Positions 1 to 19,280 of a stretch of 22,867 nucleotides of DNA are shown one piece after another. The stretch's first letter is position 1. Each line of letters starts with the position of its first letter. The DNA comes from a virus, in the IMG/VR virus record IMGVR_UViG_3300009481_000110, positions 1 through 22,867 of that record; one strand, written 5' to 3'. A program made the translations under genes and the position numbers. A model generated the notes under the pieces. That model worked only from the letters and a program-made list of their open reading frames with translations. It was not told the DNA's origin and did not search any database.

Positions 1-230
1 GTGCTATCAATATTGTAAGTAGCGGTGTCTTTGACCATAGCAACTGATTTTTGTGCGATAGTCCATTGATTCAAGCCTCTATTTGCCCACTCGGCAAGCA
101 TAATGTTAAGACTTCTAGTAGCACTTTTTAAATCATACCCGGTGCGTAACTCAATACCACAACGCTCAAAAGCTTCTTCAATATACTCTGCTACGTCTGG
201 TTCAAAATTTTTACTACTACTCGTTGCCAT
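1..230 (-). CDS. P22 gp4-like tail accessory / head-tail protein (N-terminal part)
   Basis: This frame opens with ATG at 230 and runs to the window edge without a stop, giving 76 residues of a longer protein. The start reads MATSSSKNFEPDVAEY, followed by an IEEAFERCG helix and a segment containing RTGYDLKSATRSLN and AEWANRGLNQW. From memory this N-terminus is very common in marine phage genomes and belongs to proteins compared with the P22 gp4 tail accessory factor, a ring protein between portal and tail. The start overlaps the end of the preceding gene by 14 bases, typical of translational coupling. No strong ribosome binding site is visible. The family name comes from pattern memory and only the first third or so is visible, so the exact role is tentative. 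Confidence 0.6.
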   Translation of the reverse strand, partial: MATSSSKNFEPDVAEYIEEAFERCGIELRTGYDLKSATRSLNIMLAEWANRGLNQWTIAQKSVAMVKDTATYNIDS

Positions 231-3851: not shown

Positions 3852-3879
3852 ATTATAAATTATTATACAACTATGTAAA
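3852..3879 (-). promoter_or_regulatory. Candidate sigma70-type promoter after the capsid terminator
   Basis: The minus strand has TTTACA (3879-3874) and TATAAT (3857-3852) with a 16-base spacer, directly after the intrinsic terminator and just ahead of the small membrane protein gene. The -10 is a perfect consensus. The region is extremely AT-rich with several overlapping -10-like hexamers, so the exact start is uncertain. Confidence 0.4.
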
Positions 3880-3880
3880 T

Positions 3881-3905
3881 AAAAAAAAGGACTCTTTCGA
3901 GTCCT
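3881..3905 (-). terminator. Rho-independent terminator downstream of the major capsid gene
   Basis: On the minus strand the arms AGGACTC (3905-3899) and GAGTCCT (3894-3888) form a perfect 7-bp stem closed by a GAAA tetraloop and followed by eight T (3888-3881, the first being the last stem base). It lies about 45 bases after the capsid stop codon. Read on the plus strand there is no comparable T tract, so it works in one direction only. Confidence 0.9.
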
Positions 3906-3948
3906 CTTCTTTGTAATACTGAGTTAAAAACTGTACTACGAGTTCTTG

Positions 3949-5970: not shown

Positions 5971-6917
5971 TATTTTGCCTCCCTTGCGGAAATTTTTTGT
6001 TTTTCTTTAGCAACAGACTTCAACCACGCGTCTTCCGACATATTGTGTGGCTTTAGTCCTCTGAGACGTTCGACTTCTGCTTTGGAGAAAGTCACTCCGT
6101 TCTTTTTGCCTTGTGTTTTTTGTCGGCTTCCTACGGAAGTAGAGGTAACTCTTTGCACAGCGGGTTTTTCCTCTTCTTGCGCGACACTTTGCCCTGATAA
6201 AATATCTGGGTAAACTTTGCCTACACGAGCATCAAGCTCATTGTAATAATCTTCTGAGTCGGCTTCAAAACCTTCATTGATTAGATTGTAATGAGTGAAA
6301 TAAGCATATTGCGTGGCTTGTAAATTATCTTGGTTGGCAGTATCGCCATACCAAGTATTTTTCGAGTGCCAAGCTTTTGCTTGTTCGGTAGGTACTATTT
6401 CTTGTTGTTGTTCTGGTTGAACAAAATTCTCTTCTACAGGCGTAGATTCGGCTGTAGGCATTTGCTCTGCTTGTTGTTTAGCAATTCTTACTTTTTCTTT
6501 TTGAATAGATAAATCACTTTTGAGCGTGTCTGCTTTCGACATCAATTCAGCATCGCCAGACGCAACTGCTTTTTTATACAATTCATCAGCTTGTACTTCT
6601 TTGGCTTTCAACGCTTCTTCTTCTTTTTCAATCAAAGCCGATTGGCTTTTCAAACTTTCTTGTTTGAAAGCTGCGTTTTCTCTCTGACTTTGTAATAAAG
6701 CTTGCTCTAATTTAGCAGCTCTTTCTTCGGCCGCACGATGTCTTTCGTTAAGCTTGTTAATTCTTTTTGAAACACCTTTGGTGTAATTATCAAGTTCTTC
6801 TTCTGGACTGATAGCAGTTTCAGTTGCAACTGCCTCGGTTGGTTGATCTTCTACCTGTATTTCTAGCTCTTCTTCTGGTGTATTTGGAGCTGTGTTACTT
6901 TCTTGTTCACTCATCAT
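5970..6917 (-). CDS. Probable capsid scaffolding protein, 315 aa
   Basis: The ATG at 6917 overlaps the preceding stop as ATGA. Residues 1-45 are acidic and disordered; about 46-155 form a long charged coiled coil (SKRINKLNERHRAAEERAAKLEQALLQ and on); a Gln/Glu-rich linker follows; the last 50 residues are basic and end in a helix-turn-helix-like segment (VTFSKAEVERLRGLKPHNMSEDAWLKSV). An acidic N-terminus, coiled coil and basic C-terminal helix are the hallmarks of phage scaffold proteins that bind the capsid protein through the C-terminal end. Position between portal/GroES-like genes and capsid genes is as expected. No protease domain is seen. Confidence 0.75.
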   Translation of the reverse strand: MMSEQESNTAPNTPEEELEIQVEDQPTEAVATETAISPEEELDNYTKGVSKRINKLNERHRAAEERAAKLEQALLQSQRENAAFKQESLKSQSALIEKEEEALKAKEVQADELYKKAVASGDAELMSKADTLKSDLSIQKEKVRIAKQQAEQMPTAESTPVEENFVQPEQQQEIVPTEQAKAWHSKNTWYGDTANQDNLQATQYAYFTHYNLINEGFEADSEDYYNELDARVGKVYPDILSGQSVAQEEEKPAVQRVTSTSVGSRQKTQGKKNGVTFSKAEVERLRGLKPHNMSEDAWLKSVAKEKQKISAREAK

Positions 6918-7345
6918 AAACTCACTATGTCGTCTGGATCAAGAATGGTGGCTATCACTTCATCATCATTGATGATGCGAACTTCTGCACCGTCCTCTAA
7001 TTTAAACCTAGAGCCAGAATAGCGCCCTATTAAAACCCATTGTTTTTCTTCACACCAGGGGGTTTCTCCGTATCTAGCTTTATCGTTGTAGCATTGTGGA
7101 CCTTTCTTTACCACATAAGCCACTACTGTCGCTAAAGCTTCTCGATTGACTGTTTCGTTTGCCAGAATAATACCGCCTTTCGTTTTAACTTTGCCAGCAT
7201 AAGGCAAAACTAGAATACGCCAACCTGTTGGTTGAGGCATGCGGTCTATTAAAGAATTATCCAATAAACTAGGATCTAAAACCCTAGCGTCTTGTTCAAC
7301 GTAAGCATCAGCAACAATTTCATCTGTTGATTTAAGTTGGCTCAT
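6914..7345 (-). CDS. GroES-like co-chaperonin, 143 aa
   Basis: After a 35-residue N-terminal extension the protein shows the Cpn10 barrel: TGWRILVLPYAGKVKTKGGIIL with a shortened mobile loop (KTKGGIIL), then ETVNREALATVVAYVVKKGP, EKQWVLIGRYSGSRF and DGAEVRIINDDEVIATI. Standard GroES is about 95 residues; the extra N-terminus and an insertion with two Cys (QCYNDKARYGETPWCEEK) are phage features. Like T4 gp31 it probably partners host GroEL to fold the capsid protein; no large chaperonin subunit is in the window. It overlaps the scaffold gene by four bases, which fits co-expression with head assembly. Confidence 0.85.
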   Translation of the reverse strand: MSQLKSTDEIVADAYVEQDARVLDPSLLDNSLIDRMPQPTGWRILVLPYAGKVKTKGGIILANETVNREALATVVAYVVKKGPQCYNDKARYGETPWCEEKQWVLIGRYSGSRFKLEDGAEVRIINDDEVIATILDPDDIVSL

Positions 7346-7349
7346 CTAC

Positions 7350-7535
7350 TTAGTTGTTATCCTTAAAATGTTCTTGCAGTTCATTGGTAATATAGTATAA
7401 AGCAGAAAGTTCGCCTTGCAAATATTTATAATGTTCTATATCTTTCAGCGAACCAGACATTAAAGTTTCTTGTATTTGGTTTTCCCGGTCTTTTATCTTT
7501 TTTTTGACAAAATCCATCAGTGTAACTTCATCCAT
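7350..7535 (-). CDS. Small helical hypothetical protein, 61 aa
   Basis: The ATG at 7535 shares one base with the stop of the upstream gene (TAATG). The whole protein looks helical and charged (FVKKKIKDRENQIQETLMSG, then HYKYLQGELSALYYITNELQEHF), consistent with a short coiled-coil hairpin. There is no membrane segment. I do not recognise a family. Overlap and a four-base gap to the GroES-like gene show it belongs to the head-assembly operon. Confidence 0.6.
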   Translation of the reverse strand: MDEVTLMDFVKKKIKDRENQIQETLMSGSLKDIEHYKYLQGELSALYYITNELQEHFKDNN

Positions 7536-7783
7536 TATGATGCTTTTTTAGGCCTACCTCTGGTTTTTTTTGTAGTTTTCTTTGCTGTTGTTTTTTTAGC
7601 TTTAGGCTTTTTGACTTCATCGCCACCAGCCAAACGCTTAATTTTTGCAGCTATGCGTTCGTCACTTTCTTTTTGCTCGGCCGCTTTTTGAGCATTGGCT
7701 TGTGATATAGCTTCTGCTTCGGCAGTTCTTGCTGCCTCTTTTTTTGCTTTTAATTCTGCTAAAAACTTCTCCCTAGTATTCAT
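7535..7783 (-). CDS. Basic AT-hook-like small protein, 82 aa
   Basis: The start is ATG at 7783 with GAGG upstream, one base after the portal stop. Residues 1-48 are an Ala/Glu/Lys helix; from about residue 58 the chain becomes a histone-H1-like Lys/Thr/Pro tail (KKPKAKKTTAKKTTKKT) ending in RGRPKKAS. RGRP is the core of an AT-hook, which binds the minor groove of AT-rich DNA, and this genome is AT-rich. A role in binding packaged or replicating phage DNA is inferred. Low-complexity tails of this kind can arise independently, so homology should not be assumed. Confidence 0.68.
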   Translation of the reverse strand: MNTREKFLAELKAKKEAARTAEAEAISQANAQKAAEQKESDERIAAKIKRLAGGDEVKKPKAKKTTAKKTTKKTRGRPKKAS

Positions 7784-7784
7784 A

Positions 7785-10271
7785 TCATCCTCTCATTTTT
7801 TGTTCTAATTCTAACAATTTAAGATTGGCGTTTTGTGCCAATCTATCCACTGCTACTTGTAGCTTATCATCTGCGATGTCTTTCTGTACATCGATACGTT
7901 TTTGCGCCAAGTCTGATTCCATCATTTTTTCTTGAGCTCGTTGCTCTTGTTTGGTGTCAAATTGTTGGGCTTCTAAATCTAACTCTTTATCTCTTAGTTG
8001 CAGTTCTGCTTTTCTAATATCTACTAATGGGTCGCTACTAGCACCTTGACCGATGGATTGTAAAAAGTTATCAGTCAACTCTGCTAAGATTGGCGCACTA
8101 AATTGATCTAATATCATCTGTATTTCAGTCGCTATCTGTTGAGCTTCCATAGGGGAAACTTGTTGTATCTGGCTTTGGACCTCTTGGATTCTAACTAAAA
8201 CTTCTTCTGGGATAGTTTCCTGTGCTAATTCTGTGGATAAAAACTGCAAATGTTGCATGCAATGACTTATTATCATGGATTGTATCTGTGGATTTTCTTG
8301 AACCACTTTGGTTAAAAATAAACTGCGATGTGTTTCTAAATGCGCTTGATGGTTTTGTCCAGCAAATGCTTGAGCTGGTTGACCTAGTAATAAACCAGAA
8401 TTTTCAGTGCCCGCATCGATCGGTCGTGGCGTCGTGTCAGGTGGTGCTTGTATCAAGGCTTCGACGTTATCAATACCTAAAGCTGCGTACATACGACGAT
8501 AAGCTTCATAGATACCGTTCAGACCATGCACTTGTGGATTTGATTGCACCATCTGTAATAACTCTTGAGCCAAAGTAACTCTTTGACTTTGTGAGAAAAT
8601 ATTAGGATCTGATACCGGGATAACATCTATGCGACCATCAAAGTCAGATTGCTTGATTTCAGCTGGTGCCGATCCTGTCTGAAAGTCATAAGCTGGTGGT
8701 AAATATTCAGCAAATACTTTTGATAGAAGTTTAAATTCTAATCTTTGCGCATAATGCAGACGTTTGTGTATGGCACTCATTACCTTCGTACCACGTTCCA
8801 ATAGAGCTACCGTAGTACCAACAGGCATATTTGCGTTAGCATCGCCAATATTCATATCCGCAATAGCAGCAAATCTTTTACCAGAATCCACTAACAAACC
8901 AAGTAATTGCATCAACACGTTGCTTGGTTCTTTGATTGGTAGCGGTATTAGATTTTCTCTCAAGGTACCACCTGTGGTATCAATATCTCTAAATTCGCCA
9001 GGTTGTAAAGGCTCGTCTTCATCTCTGATACGCATGCCTCTAGCTTTAAAACCAGCTGGTAGATTAGCTAAAGTACCTGCGTCTATAAGCTGTCTTAGAA
9101 TAGAAGTAGAAGCTTTTGATAAGCCACCAATCATGTGTGACAACCCAAGGCCATAAAAACCTAAGCCCGGTAAAAACTTATATTGCACAAAATAATTAAT
9201 TTTATTTTTCAACATGTCGTTTTCGACAAAGTTTCTTCTAATCGCTAGAACTCGTTGTGAAGCCTCGTCAATCGTCACTATGTAAGGCAGTTTTAAACCT
9301 GTTGGATTCCCATTTTGGTCAATGTCTTCAAAGCCCTCAATGTCTAAAACTGTATGAATTTCATAAATAATTCGGTTTCTATCTTCTTTGTAACTTGCTT
9401 CAATACCTTGAATTTGGTCAATCTCGTTTTCTATCTCTGAATCTTCGTCACTATAAGCATCTTCTGGTATATCGACATTGGCATAAAAACCAGTCAGTTG
9501 TTGTTTTTTGACTTCATTGAGTGACATGCTAATTGCATGCGTGACTCGTTCAGCAGAGGATAAATCAGCAGCTTCATAAGGCACAATCAAGTCTTCTGGT
9601 GGGATGAACTTAGAAACAGCTTTGTTGGTCACAAAATCAAAATAAACTTTTTTAAAGGCAGAACCAGCTAAAGGTAAGTAAAACAACAACATGTCTAGTT
9701 CTGGGTCATAGTCTTCCATTACATTCATAATGTAATAATTCATAAATTCTTGGATGCGCTCGGCTTGATTTTCGGTATCTATTGTTCGAGCTCCGATTAT
9801 TTCGGTTTTGACTGGACCTTTGGCTGGCAACATTTCTTTGTAAGCTTGGGCTTGAAACTGTGTGACTGCTTCTGCCAAGATAGGGTGTATTACGCCAGAA
9901 CTACCTTCAAATGGTTGCGAACGGCTCTCGTCAAATTTCATGCCTAGATATTGCAAACCGTCTTTGTAAGTTTTTTCCCACTCGCTTCTTGATTGTTTGT
10001 CGCTCTCTACTGAACTAATTAAATCGGATGCTAACTTTTGCAAAACTATTGGATCAATAAAATCTACTAAATTGGAATTGAAATCCATAGGTGGCATTTC
10101 AGCTTCCATACCTATTTCGCCATCTACTAATATTTCTTGTTCGCTTACTAAGATTTCGGCCGCATTTTTTATTTGATCCGAACGTGATTCTTCTGGCATC
10201 ACCTCTACAGCTGAACCAGTTTCTCTGACATCAGGGTTATTTTCTGTTCCTAACGGTTTGTCAATAGCCAT
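7785..10271 (-). CDS. Portal protein, 828 aa
   Basis: This is the largest complete gene and lies two short genes after the terminase, the standard portal position. It starts at ATG 10271 (MAIDKPLGTENN). After an acidic N-terminus, residues ~80-160 include EWEKTYKDGLQYLGMKF and a Pro/Gly-rich FEGSSGVIHPILAEAV segment seen in long podovirus-type portals. A central region (KFIPPEDLIVPYEA, FYGLGLSHMIGGLSKASTSILRQLID) gives the wing and stem, and the last 90 residues form a Gln/Lys coiled coil (ELQLRDKELDLEAQQ onward) that would make the barrel. Length fits P22-like portals (about 725 residues) with an extension. It forms the dodecameric DNA entry ring in the head. Confidence 0.85.
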   Translation of the reverse strand: MAIDKPLGTENNPDVRETGSAVEVMPEESRSDQIKNAAEILVSEQEILVDGEIGMEAEMPPMDFNSNLVDFIDPIVLQKLASDLISSVESDKQSRSEWEKTYKDGLQYLGMKFDESRSQPFEGSSGVIHPILAEAVTQFQAQAYKEMLPAKGPVKTEIIGARTIDTENQAERIQEFMNYYIMNVMEDYDPELDMLLFYLPLAGSAFKKVYFDFVTNKAVSKFIPPEDLIVPYEAADLSSAERVTHAISMSLNEVKKQQLTGFYANVDIPEDAYSDEDSEIENEIDQIQGIEASYKEDRNRIIYEIHTVLDIEGFEDIDQNGNPTGLKLPYIVTIDEASQRVLAIRRNFVENDMLKNKINYFVQYKFLPGLGFYGLGLSHMIGGLSKASTSILRQLIDAGTLANLPAGFKARGMRIRDEDEPLQPGEFRDIDTTGGTLRENLIPLPIKEPSNVLMQLLGLLVDSGKRFAAIADMNIGDANANMPVGTTVALLERGTKVMSAIHKRLHYAQRLEFKLLSKVFAEYLPPAYDFQTGSAPAEIKQSDFDGRIDVIPVSDPNIFSQSQRVTLAQELLQMVQSNPQVHGLNGIYEAYRRMYAALGIDNVEALIQAPPDTTPRPIDAGTENSGLLLGQPAQAFAGQNHQAHLETHRSLFLTKVVQENPQIQSMIISHCMQHLQFLSTELAQETIPEEVLVRIQEVQSQIQQVSPMEAQQIATEIQMILDQFSAPILAELTDNFLQSIGQGASSDPLVDIRKAELQLRDKELDLEAQQFDTKQEQRAQEKMMESDLAQKRIDVQKDIADDKLQVAVDRLAQNANLKLLELEQKMRG

Positions 10272-10277
10272 AATTTT

Positions 10278-10472
10278 TTAGTGTAGCACTTTCGGTCTAT
10301 CAAAGTCATTAATTGCAATCAAATCTGTCAGCTCGCCCTCTAAAATCAAGCCTTGCATTTCAGCTATCAATTCAGCTTGTTCAAAGCTTTCAGCGTGAAT
10401 ATCTGGACCCACATACTCAAGTTCATCGTGTATAAATTTAGTCACAAATATTTTTAGTTCTTTCACTGGCAT
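10278..10472 (-). CDS. Small hypothetical protein between terminase and portal, 64 aa
   Basis: I start this at ATG 10472 (MPVKELKIFVTKF), which overlaps the terminase stop codon; a TTG one codon upstream is also possible but less likely. The protein is acidic, helix plus strand, with HDELEYVGPDIHAESFEQAELIAEMQGLILEGEL. The 'A-x-S/F-x-A-E-x-A-E' region resembles short phage proteins sitting beside terminase genes, but I can name no function. It is too short and lacks the DNA-binding features for a confident small-terminase call. Confidence 0.6.
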   Translation of the reverse strand: MPVKELKIFVTKFIHDELEYVGPDIHAESFEQAELIAEMQGLILEGELTDLIAINDFDRPKVLH

Positions 10473-11956
10473 CAATAGTAAATAGTTCTGTTTTTACGCA
10501 AAAGTCTTGCTTCCTCTTGATAATCTTCCTTCAAAGATAAAAACCCACCTTGACGAAAACGCATCAAAGCCATGGTTGCACTATCGCAATAATCATCGTA
10601 ATCGCCATAAGGGAAACTAGCCATCTCTTCGATAACTTCATCAGCAAACTCGTGCTCTGGTGCCCAGACCATACCAGACTCAAAGATTGGTGCGACACTG
10701 TTCATTCGAGCTACTTTGTCTTGACCTCGACTTGGTGAGTAAGCCGTAACGGGTATGCCCATCCTTCTAAGCTCGTGGGTCAAAGGAGTCCCAGACGCTT
10801 TGGCTTCAATTAGCACACAATCTGGCTCCCAATAACGATACTCTTCTAAAGCTATTTTTTTTAGCTCTGGAAAATCAACTCTAACTCTTTTTGCGTCTAA
10901 TAAGATTATTCCTTCTGGATTGTCGTCTTTGTCGCCAAAAATAGCCCAGGTAGTGATAGCAGAATAATCTGCTGTGTCCTTTTTAGAAAAAGCCGTATCA
11001 TAACTCTGGATGACGTAATTATACTCTGGTACTTCATCTTCTTCCCATCTGCGCCACCACTCACGCTTAACTATACTGCCTTCCTCAGCAGTGGGGTTTT
11101 GTAACCATTGACTGTTCCATTTAGGTAAAGGCAAAGAAGCTTTGACTGATAGTAACTCTTCTTTTTGCCAAAATTCTGGCCACAAAGGTGCTTCGGACTC
11201 TGGCATGATGGCAGGAAACTCAACTACTTCCCATTGATCGGCATTTTCTTCGCCTTGTTTTTTTAAAACTTTACCAACCAAGTCTTTGGTGCTCCAGCGT
11301 GTCATTACTATGACAATCGTGCCACCGGGTTGTAAACGCTGTCTAGGTCCAGACGTATACCATTCGTAAGCTGATTCCATAGCTTTTGGCGACATGGCAT
11401 CTTGTTCAGAATGAGGATCATCAATAATTAACAAATCGGCACCACGACCAGTAATAGCACCACCAACACCAGCATAGTAACTTTCGCCTTCTTGATTAGT
11501 TGTCCAACGACCAGCAGACTTATTATCGGCTTGTAATTTAAGCTCTGGGAAGATGTGCTGGTACTCTTGACTGTCAATAATGTTTCTAACTTTTCTACCA
11601 AAACGCACGGCTAATTCAGCGGTGTGCGTGGTTTGTATTATTTTTAAATCACCTTTTCTACCCATCATCCATGCAGGAAAATAAGTAGAAGCAAATTCAG
11701 ATTTTGAGTGTCGAGGCGGTAAACAGACAATCAACCTTTTTAGTTTGCCTTGAGCAATGCGATTGAACTTATCGCTGATAATTTTATGGTGTCTGCCCTC
11801 GATAAATTCTGGCCATAAATGTTTTACAAATTTAATAAAATCGTTTTGACACTCATCTTGTTTGTCAATTTGTTCGTATCTATTAAGTAAGGCAAGTGCT
11901 TCTTGTTTGTCTTGTTCAGACAGAATATCAAAGTCTTTAAGTTTGTTAAGATCCAT
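10472..11956 (-). CDS. terL: Terminase large subunit (packaging ATPase-nuclease), 494 aa
   Basis: All landmarks are present. The Walker A-like CLPPRHSKS is at residues 78-86, followed by the motor signature ATPase region; Walker B LLIIDDPH is at 175-182; the coupling-type MTRWSTKDL is near 218-226. The RNase H-like nuclease carries Asp320 (QSYDTAFSKKDTADYSA), Glu384 (LIEAKASG) and Asp458 (DDYCDSA). Length is normal. It pumps DNA into the prohead through the portal and cuts concatemers. The start at ATG 11956 lacks a Shine-Dalgarno and lies ten bases after a long hairpin. No small terminase subunit is recognisable next to it. Confidence 0.95.
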   Translation of the reverse strand: MDLNKLKDFDILSEQDKQEALALLNRYEQIDKQDECQNDFIKFVKHLWPEFIEGRHHKIISDKFNRIAQGKLKRLIVCLPPRHSKSEFASTYFPAWMMGRKGDLKIIQTTHTAELAVRFGRKVRNIIDSQEYQHIFPELKLQADNKSAGRWTTNQEGESYYAGVGGAITGRGADLLIIDDPHSEQDAMSPKAMESAYEWYTSGPRQRLQPGGTIVIVMTRWSTKDLVGKVLKKQGEENADQWEVVEFPAIMPESEAPLWPEFWQKEELLSVKASLPLPKWNSQWLQNPTAEEGSIVKREWWRRWEEDEVPEYNYVIQSYDTAFSKKDTADYSAITTWAIFGDKDDNPEGIILLDAKRVRVDFPELKKIALEEYRYWEPDCVLIEAKASGTPLTHELRRMGIPVTAYSPSRGQDKVARMNSVAPIFESGMVWAPEHEFADEVIEEMASFPYGDYDDYCDSATMALMRFRQGGFLSLKEDYQEEARLLRKNRTIYY

Positions 11957-11966
11957 ACAATTAAGC

Positions 11967-12007
11967 GGGTTGCACGATTAGGTAGTGACATAGTAATCGC
12001 ACAACCC
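11967..12007 (-). promoter_or_regulatory. 14-bp stem hairpin in the terminase leader
   Basis: Arms GGGTTGTGCGATTA (12007-11994) and TAATCGTGCAACCC (11980-11967), as read on the minus strand, enclose a 13-base loop. In minus-strand RNA all 14 positions pair, two as tandem G-U. On the plus strand those two become C/A mismatches, so the structure favours the transcribed strand. There is no T tract, so it is not a normal terminator. It ends ten bases before the terminase ATG and could control its translation, be an RNA processing site, or mark a packaging or protein-binding site. Confidence 0.7.
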
Positions 12008-12043
12008 TAAGCATAAAATGCCTAGAGTCAGTATCGCATATCG

Positions 12044-12487
12044 CTATACTTCGTGCCATTCTTTGCCTTGAAATAAAAGGGCTTCGGCTTCTCTTCTTCT
12101 AATCAAACCTTCTAAAACCTCGCCACCAGCTTTGTTCCATCTTTTTATCTGTGCTGGTACTTCGTTTTTTTTATCCTGATTCAAAACTTTGAGCAAAGTT
12201 GAAGAACCTAAGTTTGTTGGACCTAAATTAAAAGTCCAACATACAAGTGCATCAAACTCGTTTTGCTCCAGTTCTACTCTAACCATGCCATTTACATAGC
12301 TTTCAAATTCCTCTAAATCTTTAGTCAAATAAACATCTGCTTCATTTTGACTAATAGTTTTGCCTTCTTTAGCGCTTTTGATGTGTCCGTAACCTATCGT
12401 CCAGTAACCAGCTGGGCATAGATATGCCTCTAATTCACAACCTTCAAACTTTTTTATCAAAGCTTTGCCCTCTTCTGATATTTTCAT
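12044..12487 (-). CDS. T4-type phage lysozyme (endolysin), 147 aa
   Basis: I use ATG 12487 (MKISEEGKALIKKFEG) because GGGGAG lies seven bases upstream. The catalytic triad is Glu15, Cys24 and Thr30, spaced E-8-C-5-T, followed by the GYGH motif; Cys in place of Asp is known in some lysozymes of this family. Further motifs are DALVCWTFNLGP and a C-terminal LIRRREAEALLFQ, both standard. It cleaves the glycan chain of peptidoglycan. There is no signal peptide or SAR segment, so release would need a holin, and several small membrane proteins upstream qualify. The start codon shares one base with the stop of the nuclease gene. Confidence 0.92.
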   Translation of the reverse strand: MKISEEGKALIKKFEGCELEAYLCPAGYWTIGYGHIKSAKEGKTISQNEADVYLTKDLEEFESYVNGMVRVELEQNEFDALVCWTFNLGPTNLGSSTLLKVLNQDKKNEVPAQIKRWNKAGGEVLEGLIRRREAEALLFQGKEWHEV

Positions 12488-12867
12488 TAATAATCTCCCC
12501 ATACTTTGCTTTTTTTACCGCCATCGTAAACAACAGCGTGTCCTTCTTTGATTAGCATTTGACATATATCTTGTCCATCTTCAGTGTACGGTATGCCTAA
12601 AATTCTGCCGTACTTACCTTTGCCAAGCGACTTAATTTTAAAAGTTCCAACACAAAGTTCTTTGAGTCTTTCTTTAGCAGCCAAACCTAATTTTTTTTCA
12701 GCTAAATCTCGTGTTCTTGATTCTGGTGTGTCTATACCTGCTAGCCGTACTCTTTGTTTGTGCAACTTGACATCAAAACCTAAATCTAAAATTACATCTA
12801 CGGTATCGCCATCTACCACCCTATCTAACTCTGCTTGATAAACAAAAGCATCTGGATTGTCACTCAT
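12487..12867 (-). CDS. Thermonuclease-family (Snc-like) nuclease, 126 aa
   Basis: Start at ATG 12867 (MSDNPDAF) with GGAG a few bases upstream; the open frame extends further but without a site. The staphylococcal-nuclease fold is clear: LDRVVDGDTVDV (Asp21), VRLAGIDTPE with Arg41, Asp46 and Glu49, GLAAKERLKEL, GKYGRILG with Arg88, and a final IKEGHAVVY. The counterparts of the known catalytic Arg35, Glu43 and Arg87 are all kept, so it should hydrolyse DNA or RNA with calcium. There is no signal peptide, so it stays in the cytoplasm until lysis. It overlaps the lipoprotein gene by eight bases. Host DNA breakdown for nucleotide supply is a reasonable inference. Confidence 0.9.
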   Translation of the reverse strand: MSDNPDAFVYQAELDRVVDGDTVDVILDLGFDVKLHKQRVRLAGIDTPESRTRDLAEKKLGLAAKERLKELCVGTFKIKSLGKGKYGRILGIPYTEDGQDICQMLIKEGHAVVYDGGKKSKVWGDY

Positions 12868-13231
12868 CACTATTCTCCTTTTTTGGTTGATCGTAATTTC
12901 TATAATATTCAACTATAGATAAAATATTTTTTGTGTATCTAGTTATTTCAGCCATATTGACTGACAAATTTTCATATTGTTGCGTGGTTAATGCGTAATA
13001 CGGCATAGCTGGTGCTTTGCCTTCTTTAACCAAAGCTAAATATTCTTCCATGATTTCTGGTGTCAAAACCTTCCATTTGACTGGCACACCTTGTATTTCC
13101 AAAGGTAAAGGCGGGTGATACATGGGCGGTATTTCAGCTATCGTTCTGACGTCTACAGGTTGTGCCTTGGGTAGTATTGAACAGCCACCCAAGACAAACA
13201 ATGAGCTAATTATTAGGAGAGATATTTTCAT
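12860..13231 (-). CDS. Small lipoprotein, candidate outer-membrane spanin subunit, 123 aa
   Basis: The N-terminus is a lipoprotein signal with lipobox LGGC, the lipidated Cys being residue 17. The mature part has a Pro-rich stretch (IPPMYHPPLPLEIQG), then VKWKVLTPEIMEEYLALV, MPYYALTTQQYENLSVNMAEITRYTKNILSIVEYYRNY. It starts within the end of the i-spanin-like gene, overlapping by 26 bases, the same nested arrangement as in many Rz/Rz1 pairs. The C-terminal helical motif also recurs in marine phages as a conserved unnamed protein, so the spanin role is inferred from lipobox, Pro-rich segment and overlap. There is no Shine-Dalgarno; coupling is likely. Confidence 0.75.
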   Translation of the reverse strand: MKISLLIISSLFVLGGCSILPKAQPVDVRTIAEIPPMYHPPLPLEIQGVPVKWKVLTPEIMEEYLALVKEGKAPAMPYYALTTQQYENLSVNMAEITRYTKNILSIVEYYRNYDQPKKENSDE

Positions 13232-13607
13232 CTTTTACATAGGGGGATGTAATTGACATTAACTCATCAAAAACTTTTTTTGAGCCTGCATTAACTCTTC
13301 TTTCAATCAAGCCAGGCTTCATCAAAGCTAAATTGTTCAGATCGTGACGGGCAAATTTGTTTCTTAATTCTGTAACAGAACGCATGGCTTCTTGCTTTGC
13401 ATCTTCTAAAGCTGCCATTTCTTGCATGGTCTCCTTTTGTTTTTGTAGATAATTTTTGATGGATTCGTTTTGTTCGGCTATTTTGTCAGTCAATATCACT
13501 TGGTTGGCTTGTAAGATTGCGTTTTCAGACAGCAAAGACCTGATGTACATTCCAGACCCAGTTATTGTAGCTAAGAGCATTGCTCCTAATATTAGGTTTA
13601 TTTTCAT
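13206..13607 (-). CDS. i-spanin-like inner-membrane coiled-coil protein, 133 aa
   Basis: One N-terminal membrane segment (about residues 4-24) is followed by a long coiled coil (ENAILQANQVILTDKIAEQNESIKN and on to about residue 85) and a more conserved-looking C-terminal stretch (ARHDLNNLALMKPGLIERRVN). This is the architecture of an Rz-type i-spanin: anchored in the inner membrane with a periplasmic coiled coil reaching to an outer-membrane lipoprotein partner. The partner candidate is the lipoprotein gene that begins inside its 3' end. It overlaps the cyclase stop by four bases (ATGA), showing that the cyclase block is transcribed straight into lysis genes. Confidence 0.75.
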   Translation of the reverse strand: MKINLILGAMLLATITGSGMYIRSLLSENAILQANQVILTDKIAEQNESIKNYLQKQKETMQEMAALEDAKQEAMRSVTELRNKFARHDLNNLALMKPGLIERRVNAGSKKVFDELMSITSPYVKDENISPNN

Positions 13608-15367
13608 GTTGTTGTATAAACATTAAGAAGTAATTTTTTACCCTTAACCTTGATTCTAGCTTCTAAAGAGAGGTTGTGACAAGAATTAAATTGTGTGTTC
13701 TCTCCAATCAATATCCCAACACCTTGCTCTTTGGTTGCACTTTCAAGTCTTGCTGCTACATTCACAGAATCACCAATGGCGGTATAATCAAACCTTGTAT
13801 CACTTCCCATGTTGCCGATTATGGCTTCCCCAGTATTAATGCCAATGCCTATTGCAACTGGTGGTTTATTTTCTTTTGCTAGTTCAACATTTAAAAATTC
13901 TATTTCATCACATATGTCCAAAGCACATGAAATCGCACTATCCTCGTGATCTATCAAATCCAACGGTGCATTGAATATTGCCATCATTGCATCACCAATA
14001 AATTTATCTATCATTCCACCATGGAACTGAACACATTTTGTTTGCACTGACAAAACTCGGTTCATTATTTCTGTAACTGCTTGTGGTTCTAGTTTTTCCG
14101 ATAAAGCAGTGAAACCACGAAGGTCAGTAAATAAAAATGTTGCTGTCTTTTTCTCACCGCCTAATTTTAAAAGCTCAGGTTTAGACTGCAATCGTTTGAC
14201 CTGTTTAGGATCTAAATAATGCTCAAATTGTTTTTTTATTTGCAGACGCAACTTAAATTGTTCACGAAAGCGTAAATAAAAAGCCGTGGCTCCAACCAAG
14301 GTTTGACTGATAAGTGTCCAGGTTACGTCTATTAACAAGCCCATACGAATTAGATAAACGCCTAAGATTGTAGTGCCTATGAAGACCATACTAGCACTAA
14401 TCAAACCTGCGCTTATGCCTAAATAAAATAACAATAACCAAACTAAAGAAGCTGTGGTTATTAAAATTAGGAGCTCTGCAAGTAGACTGTATTCTGGAAT
14501 TATAGGTGAGTCTTGTATCAAAATGCTTTCAGACAAAGCCGCTTGAATTTTATGTGGCTCTAACAAACCTATGGGTGTAGCAAGCTGTGGCATGATACCG
14601 GGCGCTGTAATACCAACAAAAACGAAACGTCCAGCCACATTCATCTCAGCCAAATTTGTTTCGGGAGTGTTTACCCAAGAAATCCATTTGCGCCCAAATT
14701 TGTCAGTTTTAACTGGTGGTAGACCACGCACTGCTATTTCTTGTATGCCTATTTCGTTAGTGGTAATAATGTAGGAGCGAGTGCCAGTTAGGACTTTTAA
14801 GACCTCAGTACCAAAAGCTGAAACCCAACCGTCTGGTGTGCGTAAAAGCAAAGGCAAACGCCTTACTAAATTATCGACATCAACTGGTGCAACCGCTATG
14901 CCTTGAGCGGTAGCGTTTTTTAAAACTTCGGTATTTTCTATGACGCCTATGGTTTCTAAGCCTGCGACTGAATTACCTTTGATTATAGTGCCAGTCGTTT
15001 TCGGAAAAACACCAGCAGAGTTTTCAAAAGTAGCTAAGATGCTAGGTCCTAAACGCAACGAATCGGCAAACTCTTGGTCGCCATTCAAACGATCTGGTTG
15101 AGGAAAGGCTATGACCCAGCCAACGCCAGTTGCACCTTTTGCTAATAGCAATTCGTTTAGTTCTGCTAATCTGCTTCTAGGCATAGGCCAACCGCCTTCT
15201 TTTTGTAAATCTGTTTCGGTTATATTTAAAATTACAAAATTACCGCTTTCTGTTTGCGGTTTGACTAAGGTATCAAAAGTTTTTAGTTTGAGGATTTCAG
15301 TAGGGGTGCTGACAAAAACCAAAGGTAAAGTCAGTAATATAAGCAAAGGTAATATTAAATATTTCAT
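13604..15367 (-). CDS. CHASE2-domain membrane adenylate cyclase (class III), 587 aa
   Basis: The start is ATG 15367, sharing one base with the FecR stop; a TTG one codon upstream is the alternative. Residues 3-20 are a membrane segment, about 25-290 a CHASE2 periplasmic sensor (LKTFDTLVK, GGWPMPRSRLAEL, VVGITAPG-like VFVGITAPG), and about 294-366 three more membrane helices. The cyclase domain runs from about 405 to 585 with metal-binding Asp415 (FTDLRGFT) and Asp459 (IGDAMMAIF), substrate-selecting Lys455 and Thr529, and catalytic Asn536 and Arg540 in DYTAIGDSVNVAARLES. Lys/Thr points to ATP, so the product should be cAMP. The complete catalytic set argues against decay. Neighbours are FecR upstream and i-spanin downstream. 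Such a gene is very unusual in a phage; acquisition from bacteria is inferred. Confidence 0.93.
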   Translation of the reverse strand: MKYLILPLLILLTLPLVFVSTPTEILKLKTFDTLVKPQTESGNFVILNITETDLQKEGGWPMPRSRLAELNELLLAKGATGVGWVIAFPQPDRLNGDQEFADSLRLGPSILATFENSAGVFPKTTGTIIKGNSVAGLETIGVIENTEVLKNATAQGIAVAPVDVDNLVRRLPLLLRTPDGWVSAFGTEVLKVLTGTRSYIITTNEIGIQEIAVRGLPPVKTDKFGRKWISWVNTPETNLAEMNVAGRFVFVGITAPGIMPQLATPIGLLEPHKIQAALSESILIQDSPIIPEYSLLAELLILITTASLVWLLLFYLGISAGLISASMVFIGTTILGVYLIRMGLLIDVTWTLISQTLVGATAFYLRFREQFKLRLQIKKQFEHYLDPKQVKRLQSKPELLKLGGEKKTATFLFTDLRGFTALSEKLEPQAVTEIMNRVLSVQTKCVQFHGGMIDKFIGDAMMAIFNAPLDLIDHEDSAISCALDICDEIEFLNVELAKENKPPVAIGIGINTGEAIIGNMGSDTRFDYTAIGDSVNVAARLESATKEQGVGILIGENTQFNSCHNLSLEARIKVKGKKLLLNVYTTT

Positions 15368-16497
15368 CAATTACTTTGTGTGATAGTAATGGTTGAATCA
15401 CTACCGCCATTTATTTTAACAACATTAGACGTACCATCTTGTATAAATATTACAGTGTAAGCATTGTTACCATTGACATCTACCCGAGCGGAATCACTGA
15501 CCATGCGCCGTAAACTAACTTGTTGGCCTGTCACAATAGTGGTTATTTGCGTGTCTGGGTCTTGACCAAGCAAAGTGCCAGATACGTTTATCCCAGTTAC
15601 TTGTTGCAACTGGTCTTCTTCGTCACCAATCGCTAGAGCGTCTAATACATCTAACAAATCTTCTAAAAAATTTACATCCAAATAATTAATATCAAGCTCA
15701 GTAAACTCCAAATCGTCGTTGCGCAAAAAGTCTTCATCCAAATAATCTACATCTAAATCATTGAAATCTAATAAATTTGCCCGTTTGGTGCGACTTTGTT
15801 CGGTTTGCACTATTTGTTCACGCTTAGGCGGTCTAACAATCAACATGTTATCAATAGCATTTAGAGTCAAATCTAAGATGACTGGTGGCGTTGGGTTAGC
15901 TTCAAACACCGATACCGTGGTGGCTTCAAATGGCTGATTAAGTATGACTGACCCTGTGGCAGTGGTGACTTCTATCTCGCCACTAGACAAACCAAAAGGG
16001 TCTGGTAAAAGAATGATTAGACTGCGGCCTAATTCGTCTACGGTGGTTGTAAAATCTGTACCACGAATAGCTATGTTTGCTGTTGGTGTTTTTAGTTTGA
16101 TGTTTTGTTTATCAATTCTCGCTAAATTACCTGTAATGAATCGTGCTGTACCCAAACCAAAAGTCAAAGCCATCTTGGATTTTGACGGATCTGGGTCAAA
16201 GATATATTCGTCCACAATCAGTTGTGAATGTTCAGTCAGACGGACAGTGCTATCATCTAAAAAAGTAATAGCCATGCGACCATTGTTGGTTATGGCTTCA
16301 TCGTTTTGTTGAATTGAAAACTGTAACTCAGCGTCGTAAGGCTGATCTCTAACTATTTGTGCTTGACCATTGAGCTCTGATATATCGCCAATACTTTCAA
16401 CAACCTGTGCTTGTGCCTTGGTCGTTTTGAATGACACACAAGGTAGAAGCGTCATTACCAGAATTGTTTGATATAGATATAATTTTGAGCCAGTCAT
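15367..16497 (-). CDS. Secreted FecR-domain protein with curlin-like tail, 376 aa
   Basis: A signal peptide with likely cleavage after AQA (residue 30) precedes a FecR domain at about 36-200: NNGRMAITFLDDSTVRL, DEYIFDP, GTARFITGNL, KLKTPTANIAIRGTDF and the Gly-Glu-Ile strand. No C-terminal membrane helix is seen, so it is periplasmic or exported. Residues 243-294 are a striking Asp/Leu repeat (DLDVDYLDEDFL, then ELDINYLDVNFL). The last ~35 residues (IQDGTSN and ITITQSN) look like curlin strands. I use ATG 16497; ATG 16455 would give a shorter signal peptide. Either way it overlaps the curlin gene. FecR proteins often lie beside CHASE2 cyclases in bacteria, so they probably act together. Confidence 0.88.
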   Translation of the reverse strand: MTGSKLYLYQTILVMTLLPCVSFKTTKAQAQVVESIGDISELNGQAQIVRDQPYDAELQFSIQQNDEAITNNGRMAITFLDDSTVRLTEHSQLIVDEYIFDPDPSKSKMALTFGLGTARFITGNLARIDKQNIKLKTPTANIAIRGTDFTTTVDELGRSLIILLPDPFGLSSGEIEVTTATGSVILNQPFEATTVSVFEANPTPPVILDLTLNAIDNMLIVRPPKREQIVQTEQSRTKRANLLDFNDLDVDYLDEDFLRNDDLEFTELDINYLDVNFLEDLLDVLDALAIGDEEDQLQQVTGINVSGTLLGQDPDTQITTIVTGQQVSLRRMVSDSARVDVNGNNAYTVIFIQDGTSNVVKINGGSDSTITITQSN

Positions 16498-17122
16498 TGT
16501 CTTGGGTACTCAGCTGTTGAATGTTAAGAGCAGTGTTGTTTCCCGTATGGTCCCAATAAAAATAGCCTCCAGCATAGCCACTACCCGTAAAGTTTATGCT
16601 GTTTGCATTACCATCAATGTCCATAAAATTAGTTGCACCGTCGTAATTAATATTAGATGTAATCTGATTACTAGAACCGTTGATAATCCAATCTAAGTCT
16701 AACTGACTAGCTAGAGCTGAGGTTGCATGATTCAAAGTCATAGCATTAGAGCCACCAGTGACGTTGACATTGACATTTGAGCTATCAGCTCCATAAGTAT
16801 TGCTAGGGTCGGTTTGCATGGTAAAGACGTTGCTATCTCCGTCTAATTGAAAAAACCCGGTATAAGAGTCAGCCCAAATATCACCTAAAAACTTGTTGGA
16901 ATTACCAATCATGTTTATGTCAAGGGTCATGTTATTGCCATCTAAATCTAGTGGCGTCATCGAGCCAGCTGCGGCTTGTAGGCCACCGATAATATTGCTA
17001 CTACCGATTTGCTCTAAATCTATGTTGGCTTGTGTACCAGATTGATCGATGTAGATTTCGTTATCAGCCGCGTATATCGTCGCACTCATCAGTAGTGCAA
17101 GGCTTAGTAATTTCAACTTCAT
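16397..17122 (-). CDS. Secreted curlin-repeat (CsgA/CsgB-like) protein, 241 aa
   Basis: I start at ATG 17122 (MKLKLLSLALLMSATIYA, cleavage near residue 18-19), with AGGAG 11 bases upstream. The mature protein opens with an almost classic curlin unit (IYIDQSGTQAN, LEQIGSSN) and continues with at least six Gly-x-(S/N/D)-N strand-turn units: IGNSNKF, DGDSNVF, TGGSNAM, NGSSNQI, DGNANSI and TGNNTAL, spaced about 20-35 residues. Only two Cys occur, both at the extreme C-terminus (STLCV ... GC). E. coli CsgA has five regular repeats; here they are longer and less regular. It should be the fibre subunit or nucleator exported through the CsgG pore encoded just before. It overlaps csgG by 59 bases. Confidence 0.82.
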   Translation of the reverse strand: MKLKLLSLALLMSATIYAADNEIYIDQSGTQANIDLEQIGSSNIIGGLQAAAGSMTPLDLDGNNMTLDINMIGNSNKFLGDIWADSYTGFFQLDGDSNVFTMQTDPSNTYGADSSNVNVNVTGGSNAMTLNHATSALASQLDLDWIINGSSNQITSNINYDGATNFMDIDGNANSINFTGSGYAGGYFYWDHTGNNTALNIQQLSTQDNDWLKIISISNNSGNDASTLCVIQNDQGTSTGC

Positions 17123-17933
17123 GTGTCCAAAAACTCCTGTCATAACCTAAATTTATTAGTTCTAAAACAGCACTTTCAATGGCTTTCATTAAAGCTATTG
17201 TGGTACTTTCATTTCGAGCCGAACCTATTTCTATTTCAATCAACTCCGTACCAGCTTCAAAAAACTTAAATACGTCGTTGGATTTACCATAGCTAAATAT
17301 GGTCTTTTGACTGGTTACTTCTAAAAGTACCTCGCCAGTAGCAACAGAAACCATCCGTAAACTCACGCTTACCGTGTCCTCTCGGTACTGAACACTACCA
17401 CCAATGCCGAGTAGCCTAGCACCTGTGCCTCCACTCGTTAAGTTAGTATCATAACTTAGGACAGCACCCTCAAGCAAGACACCAGCAAATAAAAGTGGCT
17501 GGATGGTTTTGTCTTCTTCTTTTTCAGCAAACTGTTCTCGTGCAGATCTGATTAACTGACGTTCTTTAACTAGGTTATCTAAACCGACACGTTCAACGAC
17601 ACGAAAAAATTTACCATCGGCTGCATGTTTGAGCGCTCTAACTAGCAAAGCGCTAGGAGCTTGAGTAACAGCTGTAGAAAACAAAGCAAATTCACTGTTA
17701 CTTTTTCTTTGACCAGTCTGATCGGTAAAAGCATTGCCATAGACTGCAACGACAGGCATAGTTTTTGGTGGCAAAACCTTGAGCAGAGCTTTGGATTGCA
17801 AATCGTAAATAGTAGCTTCGGTTGTACCTTTGCTTTTGTATCTTTGCTTTTCGGTGTCCTGGATTACTTCGTGAATTGCACAACTAGAAAGTAAAAGAGC
17901 CAATAGGCAGAGAAATTTCAGTCGTATTACCAT
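17064..17933 (-). CDS. csgG: CsgG-like curli secretion channel lipoprotein, 289 aa
   Basis: Lipoprotein signal with lipobox LSSC (Cys18). The body aligns by eye with E. coli CsgG along its length: AVYGNAFTDQTGQ, FSTAVTQAPSALLVRAL (85-101), ERVGLDNLVKERQLIR (114-129), LTSGGTGARLLGIG with VQYREDTVSVSLRMV (165-194), ATGEVLLEV, SKTI-like SQKTIFSYG and MKAIESAVLELINLGYDRSFW. Length is close to the usual 277. CsgG forms a nonameric outer-membrane pore. In E. coli the channel is narrowed by Tyr51, Asn55 and Phe56 (mature numbering); here Phe85 matches Phe56, while the Tyr and Asn positions look changed (Leu84 in place of Asn) with one residue inserted. It overlaps csgF by 50 bases and has no Shine-Dalgarno, so translation is probably coupled. 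Confidence 0.95.
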   Translation of the reverse strand: MVIRLKFLCLLALLLSSCAIHEVIQDTEKQRYKSKGTTEATIYDLQSKALLKVLPPKTMPVVAVYGNAFTDQTGQRKSNSEFALFSTAVTQAPSALLVRALKHAADGKFFRVVERVGLDNLVKERQLIRSAREQFAEKEEDKTIQPLLFAGVLLEGAVLSYDTNLTSGGTGARLLGIGGSVQYREDTVSVSLRMVSVATGEVLLEVTSQKTIFSYGKSNDVFKFFEAGTELIEIEIGSARNESTTIALMKAIESAVLELINLGYDRSFWTHEVEITKPCTTDECDDIRG

Positions 17934-18396
17934 CTGGGTCTGTAATTGTTAATGTTATTGTCACGCCATCGCTAGTATAACTTATTAAGTTGTTTTCTAG
18001 CTCTAAGGTGCCAGAGGTTTTTGTCACATCGCCAAATAGGTTTTCCACGAGCTGCCTAGATAGTTGCGCATAGACTCTGGACTCTAAATTACGCACAAAA
18101 CGAGCCAACGTCGTGTTTTCTTTGTCGCGTTCAATTTCGTCTTGAATAGCTTTGAGTTCTTCTTTCAGAGTCAATCTACGAGAGTATTCTTGGTTTTCAA
18201 TCGTTAAATAGTGACTCGATGTACCGACACCATTGAAACTTGGACTTTTAAATTTATAGGTAATTTGGTCAGCAAAGACACTCTGAATTGAACCAAATAT
18301 GAGTGTAAAGATTATAAAACCCATGCCAATAAAGGCAAACCAATCTTTAAATTTTCTTTCTTGTTCCAGCGTCTTTTGGCTTTTCTGTCTTCTCAT
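17884..18396 (-). CDS. csgF: CsgF-like curli assembly factor, 170 aa
   Basis: After a long charged N-region (residues 1-19) and a hydrophobic signal (20-41, cleavage after VFA), the mature start DQITYKFKSPSFNG matches the CsgF N-terminus (E. coli TMTFQFRNPNFGG), the peptide that plugs into the CsgG channel and sets its second constriction. A charged helical region follows (LKEELKAIQDEIERDKENTTLARFVRNLESRVYAQLSRQL), then a C-terminal beta part (DGVTITLTITDPDGNTTEISLP) like CsgF. I use ATG 18396; ATG 18324 would give a normal-length signal peptide (146 aa) and no overlap with the holin-like gene. Its place just before csgG supports the call. Confidence 0.87.
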   Translation of the reverse strand: MRRQKSQKTLEQERKFKDWFAFIGMGFIIFTLIFGSIQSVFADQITYKFKSPSFNGVGTSSHYLTIENQEYSRRLTLKEELKAIQDEIERDKENTTLARFVRNLESRVYAQLSRQLVENLFGDVTKTSGTLELENNLISYTSDGVTITLTITDPDGNTTEISLPIGSFTF

Positions 18397-18637
18397 CTTT
18401 CAGCTTATTTTCCTCTTTGAGTTCCATAACTGTCCCTACCTTCTCTTTCAAGCGTATCATATCTTGGTCTAAAAGTCGTAATTGGTCAGTTAGACGTATG
18501 ATAGTAGTTTTCATTTCTTGGACAGCAGGATCTATCGTATTGGTTATCGTCTGCCAAACATAATAAACAAAATAGCCTAAACCAACGACCATAACTACCG
18601 GGAAGCCAAAGTCCGCGACTAATTGTACGACATCCAT
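18347..18637 (-). CDS. Small membrane protein, holin-like candidate, 96 aa
   Basis: One N-terminal membrane helix (about residues 7-29, FGFPVVMVVGLGYFVYYVW) is followed by a heptad-like helix (IIRLTDQLRLLDQDMIRLKEKV) and a Lys/Glu tail. The architecture is that of BhlA-type and similar small phage membrane proteins. The segment RLLDQDMIRL echoes SIMNNDMIRID in the next upstream protein, suggesting the two are distant paralogues. Holin or holin-regulator function is inferred from size, topology and position before lysis genes. It is separated from its upstream neighbour by two bases. Confidence 0.72.
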   Translation of the reverse strand: MDVVQLVADFGFPVVMVVGLGYFVYYVWQTITNTIDPAVQEMKTTIIRLTDQLRLLDQDMIRLKEKVGTVMELKEENKLKDEKTEKPKDAGTRKKI

Positions 18638-18639
18638 GC

Positions 18640-18933
18640 TTAGTCTCTACGAGCGTCGATTTTGCCGTCTTCGACAAAGTTTTCAGCCCTAGCAATGCGA
18701 TCCAAGTCGGGGGATAAATCAAGAGCGGCCGATACCAAAGTATCAATACGAATCATGTCGTTGTTCATAATCGAAGCTCTGGTAATCAACATCTGCGTTA
18801 TCCCTTGCACAGTTTTGATTTCGCCAACCAAGCCATCCATGAGTTGTTTCATCACTAAAAAAATAAAATAAGCCATAATCAAAGCACCCGCTATCGGTAC
18901 ACCTAGCTCCGCTATCAGATTAAAGACTTCCAT
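18640..18933 (-). CDS. Small membrane protein, holin-like candidate, 97 aa
   Basis: The start ATG 18933 overlaps the previous stop by one base (TAATG), with AAGG just upstream. A single N-terminal helix (MEVFNLIAELGVPIAGALIMAYFIFLVMK, about residues 5-28) leads to a cytoplasmic or periplasmic helix (EIKTVQGITQMLITRASIMNNDMIRIDTL) and a charged tail ending DARRD. The plan is the same as that of the 96-residue neighbour. The family is common in marine phages as an unnamed protein. It may be a holin, antiholin or accessory lysis factor; which of the four membrane proteins is the actual holin cannot be told from sequence. Confidence 0.72.
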   Translation of the reverse strand: MEVFNLIAELGVPIAGALIMAYFIFLVMKQLMDGLVGEIKTVQGITQMLITRASIMNNDMIRIDTLVSAALDLSPDLDRIARAENFVEDGKIDARRD

Positions 18934-19280
18934 TATTCGCCTTTAAACTTTTTACTTTGCCCGGATGTGCCAGCATAAATACCAAACACCGCTGCCATCG
19001 CACCAACCACTATAGACACTAAAGCTGACTGTTCCAGATTTGGTTCTGGCAAGGCCATAAACCAAATGACAACTTTGTAAAGTAAGACAATGTAAACGCT
19101 AACGAAGATCCTCGGAAAAATGCGCCAGGCATCTATGGTTTTAGCTAGGTGGACCCATTTTGCAAAAGGATTATCGCCGTCATTCTTAGGTGTAACGTCT
19201 ATATCGAGCTCAAGTTTTCTTTTGATCGGTGTTTCTTTTTCGACTATGGTATTGTCGGTTATTATCTTTTCTTCGTTCAT
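18933..19280 (-). CDS. Two-helix membrane protein, holin candidate, 115 aa
   Basis: After a charged N-terminal region (residues 1-50) there are two membrane helices, about 55-75 (IFPRIFVSVYIVLLYKVVIWFMAL) and 85-105 (LVSIVVGAMAAVFGIYAG), joined by a short PEPNLEQS loop, then a short Lys-rich tail. Two helices with charged ends, a Gly/Ala-rich second helix and about 110 residues suit a class II holin. The pattern DAWRIFPR ... WFMALP ... VVGAMAAVFG is one I associate with marine phages. The ATG overlaps the upstream stop as ATGA. Of the cluster, this is the best holin candidate. Confidence 0.75.
   Translation of the reverse strand: MNEEKIITDNTIVEKETPIKRKLELDIDVTPKNDGDNPFAKWVHLAKTIDAWRIFPRIFVSVYIVLLYKVVIWFMALPEPNLEQSALVSIVVGAMAAVFGIYAGTSGQSKKFKGE

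Follow-up and report, generated by a model that had tools for sequence, protein, structure and literature searches.

A two-hairpin, apparently promoter-anchored leader RNA before the terminase gene of a pelagiphage-related phage clade

The terL locus and its leader

The window, as the DNA analysed here is called, comprises the 22,867 bases of a virus record. A comparison of its positions 7000-19000 with 50,697 phage records gave no near DNA match, and the nearest named relatives of its TerL are 023Pt_psg01 (63%), HTVC027P (59%), DSL-LC04 (59%) and HTVC023P (57%), of which HTVC027P and HTVC023P are pelagiphages. Along the minus strand, the curli genes CsgG and CsgF, accompanied by FecR and a CHASE2 cyclase, are followed by spanins, a nuclease, lysozyme and terL, and past terL by a small gene, the portal gene and so on to the gene for the major head protein (Table 1). 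This curli cluster (type VIII secretion), FecR and the CHASE2 cyclase included, occupies 13604-18396 on the minus strand; a curli cluster of such make-up has already been described for HTVC023P-type pelagiphages (PMC9599517). Elsewhere the window carries a GroES-like gene at 6914-7345, a 231-aa ORF (217-912, minus strand) matching a PHROG labelled ferredoxin (phrog_3704, E 2.6e-31) and a repetitive ORF (931-1305, minus strand) built of repeated MAKGGAMKGTKG-like units.

The lysozyme ORF ends at 12044 and the terL ATG begins at 11956, leaving a gap of 87 bases, and in this gap lies the hairpin described by the earlier note, here called H2. Read on the minus strand, it consists of a 5' arm (GGGTTGTGCGATTA), a 13-base loop (CTATGTCACTACC) and a 3' arm (TAATCGTGCAACCC). 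The earlier description (a stem of 14 bp in which two G-U pairs stand in tandem, a loop of 13 bases, an ATG ten bases further on with no Shine-Dalgarno visible in the spacer, and full pairing in the transcribed strand only) proved accurate throughout: folding of the minus strand yields -28 kcal/mol, compared with -18.4 +/- 3.1 in shuffled sequences (z -3.1, 1/200 as good), whereas the fold of the plus strand is ordinary (z -0.6). When G-U pairs and loops of 3-20 are allowed, a perfect 14-bp stem is expected at 0.74 sites per dinucleotide-shuffled window (both strands), with at least one in 55/100 shuffles, and the window itself holds two, H2 and the terminator 3' of the capsid gene. Since a stem of this length is thus common by chance in one sequence, significance had to come from relatives.

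Two other ideas about H2 were set aside. An intrinsic terminator was rejected, since GCUUAAUUGU lies directly 3' of H2, with no U tract, and terminator scans left the hairpin unflagged. An alternative pairing between loop and 5' arm (GGUAG-CUACC), seen by eye in some relatives, is absent from the window and was dropped. Nor did a search of the window for five 8-mers complementary to the loop indicate a second target for it: one of them, AGTGACAT, has a further occurrence on the plus strand at 9520, and the element is the sole site of the remaining four.

Across relatives H2 belongs to a larger element of constant order: a -10-like hexamer, four bases, a hairpin H1, the abutting H2, a short spacer and terL. 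In the window the hexamer lies 8 bases past the lysozyme stop. The earlier note's idea of a functional structure before terL is upheld by conserved arms and heavy covariation (see below), but that note had neither H1 nor the promoter-like hexamer. We compared 66 distinct hexamer-to-H2 sequences. A -10-like hexamer is present in all 66 by a looser search, and in the 65 that were parsed (the tally skipped the misparsed L173) it reads TATACT in 50, TATAAT in 10, GATACT, the window's type, in 3 and AATACT in 2. H1 begins exactly four bases past the hexamer in 59/66, the other seven parses differing. The seventh base after the hexamer, two further in than the start of H1 at that spacing, is a purine in 66/66 (A 64, G 2); it is preceded by a pyrimidine and is itself paired, likewise in every one of the 66. 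A pyrimidine at -1 and a purine at +1 are usual for bacterial start sites, and this base pattern, together with the pairing of the seventh base, places the predicted transcript start at about H1's first pair. We regard the promoter and the 5' end as very probably placed as predicted. A promoter scan of the window against the consensus flagged no -35/-10 pair at the element, so an activator may be needed.

At the other end of the element, the first ATG lies 7-18 bases 3' of H2 (the foot of H2 being set uniformly) and 7-13 bases in 54/66, and a Shine-Dalgarno-like AGGA, GGAG or AAGG occurs between H2 and the first ATG in only 9/66. The promoter side is under the stricter constraint, and the ATG side is still constrained. 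The minimum-energy fold is one of two separate hairpins in 65/66 elements. In two subclades (L013-L026 and the L028 type) an A+U-rich hairpin of 7-8 bp, 3' of H2, could enclose the terL start codon; it was rejected as a general feature, the commonest best stem there having only six pairs over the 66 elements.

A strong intrinsic terminator stands just past the capsid gene in all five genomes that reach it (the window, L468, L469, L470 and L472). It is unlike in sequence and in the same place in the four relatives, and L472, which is without the leader, has it too. From terL to the capsid gene, the sense strand of those five genomes gave no terminator that passes the same filter. With the leader 5' of terL and the first terminator past the capsid gene, the leader would head a terL-to-capsid unit of about 8 kb. 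In the window a promoter-like TTTACA-16-TATAAT comes just past the capsid-gene terminator (the two together at 3852-3909, minus strand), which suggests that the terminator really stops transcription.

Table 1. Features of the terL leader and of the unit that it precedes (window coordinates)
Feature	Position	Strand	Basis
-10-like hexamer GATACT	12030..12035	-	sequence; position homologous across elements
Predicted transcription start (A)	12023	-	base conservation; prediction
Hairpin H1, 7 bp in window fold	12008..12024	-	fold, covariation; abuts H2 without spacer
H2 5' arm, 14 nt	11994..12007	-	sequence, fold, covariation
H2 loop CUAUGUCACUACC	11981..11993	-	loop comparison across relatives
H2 3' arm, 14 nt	11967..11980	-	sequence, fold, covariation
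Spacer to terL ATG, 10 bases, without Shine-Dalgarno	11957..11966	-	sequence
terL, large terminase subunit, first gene of unit	10472..11956	-	phrog_38, E 1.2e-106
Second gene, small protein of ~65 aa, between terL and portal	10278..10475	-	locus comparison
Major head protein gene	3949-4866	-	gene assignment
Intrinsic terminator 3' of major head protein gene	3876..3909	-	terminator scan; taken as unit end

Covariation and the strand under selection

The arms, whose conservation and covariation in the terL leaders of relatives the earlier note had named as the informative comparison, are conserved and covary heavily. In set A1, which comprises 24 of 29 distinct element sequences (the partial L014, the divergent L080 and the near-copies L033, L037 and L039 are left out, and H1 is wrongly aligned in L031 and L034), 96.6% of the cells belonging to the two hairpins are paired, and 11/21 pairs show changes on both sides. 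None of 500 shuffles reached any of five measures, and when the partners are slid by 1-3 columns pairing falls to 29-45%. Related sequences inflate covariation counts; the slid controls keep this relatedness yet fail. In set A2 (24 rows including one duplicate, that is, 23 distinct sequences from three divergent classes) 97.1% of H2 cells are paired and 11/12 pairs have changed on both sides, and one of five whole-structure measures was reached by 1/500 shuffles. H1 pairing there is 85%, a score lowered partly because of misalignment in divergent rows, L080 and L190 being one base off in H1 and class C partly misaligned in it.

In class A, 35 distinct arm pairs taken at fixed offsets pair in 479/490 cells, and they hold 109 G-U cells against 3 A-C/C-A. 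Since a DNA palindrome would show both about equally, the great excess of G-U points to RNA of the terL strand as the selected molecule. This asymmetry leads us to reject a DNA operator or palindrome and a cos/pac packaging site, and it tells against the DNA packaging element that the earlier note had allowed for, wobble being tolerated almost only as terL-strand RNA allows. The argument then attached to it, that no small terminase is seen nearby, carries little weight because terS lies some 3-5 kb from terL in four named relatives; the family tests covered part of the window's ORFs, so that a terS may lie among the others. We conclude that H1 and H2 almost certainly form a real structured RNA; comparison among relatives shows, at the level of sequence, that selection acts strongly on them as RNA structures in the terL-sense strand.

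In the close set the H2 loop is a near-invariant CUAUGUCACUAYC. Divergent variants mostly have an H2 stem of 11-13 bp and a larger loop, with the core UCACUAYC at a distance of 13-14 bases from the stem's foot. Members of the wide set were gathered with TCACTAYC as anchor, so that the invariance of the core in that set is partly by choice, and elements with another core would be missed; HTVC027P-type loci (L262-L341) were excluded from it. As a separate observation on H1, class B (L080, L190, L193, L197, L210, L211, L222, L227 and L231) conserves CUCCAU in the H1 loop, and in class A the H1 loop is short and without CUCCAU.

Distribution of the leader and the second gene of the unit

The element stands directly before terL in 59 of the best 80 of 406 TerL-scan loci and is absent there in 21/80; a scan seeded with a divergent relative gave further element variants. 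A motif scan of viral contigs added at least 102 new loci, of which 88, among the matches listed, have TerL (78-100% identity) directly downstream and the element right before terL, while the other 14 have no TerL and no hairpin (2-8 of 14 pairs). On 16 whole records, most of which may be fragments, the wide model R3 found exactly one copy in each of seven, before terL, and none in four records of the element-less clade, two HTVC027P-type records and three named phages. Bacterial genomes, scanned with a pattern that could not detect classes B and C, yielded at least 119 matches; among the matches listed none had 11/14 or more pairs, and since the best had only 10/14 they are taken as chance.

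In a TerL tree of 84 rows, the 11 rows for element-less loci group as a single clade (100/100), which lies within the element-bearing group. One loss, with the element present at the base of the clade, is therefore the simplest history. GC content is 44-51% in the element-less loci vs 34-41% in the bearers measured, and by eye the terL start overlaps the lysozyme stop in the former. The element-less TerL clade (L054-L059, L061, L063, L064, L067, L070-L079 and L081), with its high GC, possibly marks a host shift.

The second gene of the unit encodes a protein family of 59-74 residues and is present at 105/108 element loci vs 0/18 element-less loci, counting near-copies and repeats of one contig among the 126 of 132 loci that are long enough. 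Three loci (L228, L229 and L236) keep the leader RNA without an intact second gene, so that the gene is not an obligate partner. Moreover, the co-loss is one event, and as both features flank terL a single rearrangement could explain both. A structural model of the protein (pLDDT 80, pTM 0.55) has the order strand-strand-strand-helix-strand. T7 Gp2 is an inhibitor of host RNA polymerase, and against the Gp2 structure the model gives VIA Z 4.5 over 45 residues at 1.9 A, two PaaB entries scoring higher (5.1). In Pfam, Gp2 is reached at E 0.035 by 1/37 members, with the unrelated VirD5 at 0.012; PHROG 1307 is reached at E 0.017 by 1/37, with phrog_1230, whose function is not assigned, at 0.0029. 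A comparison by hhalign with Gp2 gave 79% probability over 34 columns, the pair being chosen after the fact. Ten members scanned singly against PHROG yielded no convincing match, and Foldseek with the model gave nothing below E 0.6, listing RNA polymerase epsilon (YkzG) without significance. We discounted a match to a PDB chain, CAP REPEAT (E 2e-4 summed over five stretches), no stretch of which is significant alone. Kinship of the second gene to T7 Gp2 is a weak lead only.

Comparable RNAs and the possible role of the leader

Rfam 15 gave no match to the whole window at gathering score, nor to a 201-base region at E <= 10; since Rfam is also blank at gathering score on the HK022 putL stretch, it does not test put. 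HK022 put RNA (putL and putR, polymerase-utilisation sites) consists of two stem-loops, is about 70 nt long and paired from +3 of the PL transcript, and is bound to the zinc-binding domain of polymerase beta' (PMC9378689). Like HK022 putL (PMC9378689), the element has about 60-70 nt and two close stem-loops and stands 5'-proximal, the start being predicted here, before a long operon. The differences are considerable, however: HK022 put lies in early operons and has its contact residues in stems, junction and bulges (PMC9378689), whereas here the stems are free to change, the apical loop of H2 is fixed and the operon runs from terL to the capsid gene. A covariance model, R2, built from the putL regions of seven phages, recovers HK022 putL at 99 bits and, at 36.5 bits, another HK022 site that agrees with putR, and it found nothing at E <= 10 in the window or in eight element loci; R1, the element model, found nothing in the HK022 stretch. 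Hence, as far as these tools show, the element is not a put RNA by descent, though by analogy it may work like one.

The element and lambda nut (boxA-boxB) both place a hairpin whose loop is conserved in nascent RNA close to a promoter, the element's stem being much longer. It also resembles the T4/RB69 operator of gene 43, which encodes DNA polymerase, in being a phage hairpin with a conserved loop upstream of a gene for a DNA enzyme. That operator is reported to have 16-18 bases and to lie about 40 bases upstream of the start, part of it overlapping the ribosome site (PMC3014915); here, in contrast, a hairpin of 41-45 nt sits beside a promoter-anchored H1 and 7-18 bases from the first ATG.

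In HTVC027P-type pelagiphages terL is likewise preceded by a gap, with a TAAAATACT/TATAATACT-like sequence recognized there by eye, but the sequences conserved in these leaders are others than in the element. R1 and R3 gave no match in the three named phages and two HTVC027P-type contigs searched whole, nor R3 in 24 of 80 HTVC027P-type loci (best E 0.25, on the strand opposite terL). All 37 of the HTVC027P-type loci examined carry GGGGTCCCA within 170 bases upstream of terL (e.g. L083:5885-5893), and the window does not; in those loci GGGGTCCCA is possibly a regulatory site. The element was not found described in the titles and abstracts of the open-licence literature searched. The leader seems undescribed and looks like a new searchable RNA family.

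We suggest, at a probability of a little over one in three for the statement as a whole, that the element is a promoter-anchored, cis-acting 5' leader whose target is the complex transcribing the terL-to-capsid unit. A host-type promoter would fire at 12023, giving a transcript of about 8 kb that opens with H1 and H2. The folded nascent leader would then dock on RNA polymerase through the H1/H2 junction and the H2 loop, which is the uncertain step, either in direct contact, in the manner of put RNA, which suppresses pausing and termination, or by way of a bound factor, and the docked polymerase would elongate through the late unit with resistance to pausing or termination. What looks like a docking module is the combination of a changeable stem of constant register, a fixed loop, a transcript start and an abutting hairpin. 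Against an action on transcription stand the missing match to the put model and the narrow distance from H2 to the ATG, which fits translation too; the lack of an obvious terminator within the unit, moreover, cuts against a simple antitermination role. Considered from sequence, the transcription complex is only slightly ahead of translational control as the target, and the function is inferred.

The closest rival, ranked behind transcription, is control of terL translation, which the earlier note had proposed as a gate on the terminase and which we hold to be nearly as likely. Lying near an ATG that in most elements has no Shine-Dalgarno, H2 would hinder terL initiation as an operator or throttle, and a phage protein (TerL or another) bound to the loop would repress it further, so that few TerL molecules are made from a message that also encodes the capsid. 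The 7-13-nt spacing of most elements and the scarcity of Shine-Dalgarno-like sequences fit this well, as do the place of the element right before terL in the TerL-bearing motif matches listed, those without TerL lacking the hairpin, and the presence of terL and the capsid gene in one unit. A free stem with a fixed loop is moreover the pattern of a protein-bound operator, for which the gene 43 operator is a precedent (PMC3014915). The distance to the ATG nevertheless spans 7-18 nt, which is looser than the promoter spacing, and an H1 at +1 would be superfluous for such a throttle. The hairpins could alternatively act as a 5' stability cap, one at the first nucleotide shielding the end from pyrophosphohydrolase and RNase E and thereby prolonging the life of a long late message; the predicted +1 falls at about the start of H1, and H2 abuts H1, so that little single strand is left before the coding region, and the ompA leader is a precedent for a stabilizing 5' hairpin. 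We think this rather unlikely, however, considering that a cap explains neither the near-invariant 13-base loop of H2 nor the fixed register of its stem.

The remaining two explanations appear to us much less probable. A packaging RNA, loosely analogous to the pRNA of phi29, would be made beside terL, be bound by terminase or portal and join or regulate packaging. Every copy found is linked to terL and selection is at the RNA level, as such a role would have it, but a whole terL clade (the 21 of the best 80 of 406 loci) does without the element just before terL, its member L472 keeping terL and portal, and the promoter-fixed geometry would not be required; the idea, improbable as we judge it, has no positive support beyond position. 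Less probable still is an RNase III site separating the lysis from the packaging messages, another proposal of the earlier note. The 14-bp duplex does lie between the lysis genes and terL, and an RNA reading through from lysozyme would include it; however, processing would leave the conservation of the loop unexplained, and in most of classes B and C the stem is merely 11-13 bp by the parser. With a loop so nearly invariant, we argue against processing as the main role.

Returning to action on the transcription complex, it is conceivable, though we consider it unlikely, that pelagiphage-related phages possess a second, unrelated class of put-like nascent RNA, which would lock host RNA polymerase in a processive state for the late morphogenesis unit. 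In that case the small, possibly Gp2-like protein encoded after terL would perhaps join in binding the polymerase.

Finally, what had been observed as a hairpin is part of a two-hairpin, apparently promoter-anchored leader RNA of a pelagiphage-related phage clade. Pelagiphages are described as ubiquitous and highly abundant (PMC10504331), and control of their late genes seems to be little studied at the RNA level; the main text of the paper on the HTVC027P transcriptome contains none of the words promoter, UTR and terminase. A conserved leader with a working covariance model offers a direct handle on late control. Should its target be RNA polymerase, the leader would represent a second put-like class in nature; should its target be terL translation, the leader would reveal how these phages keep packaging enzyme and capsid in balance when one message encodes both.
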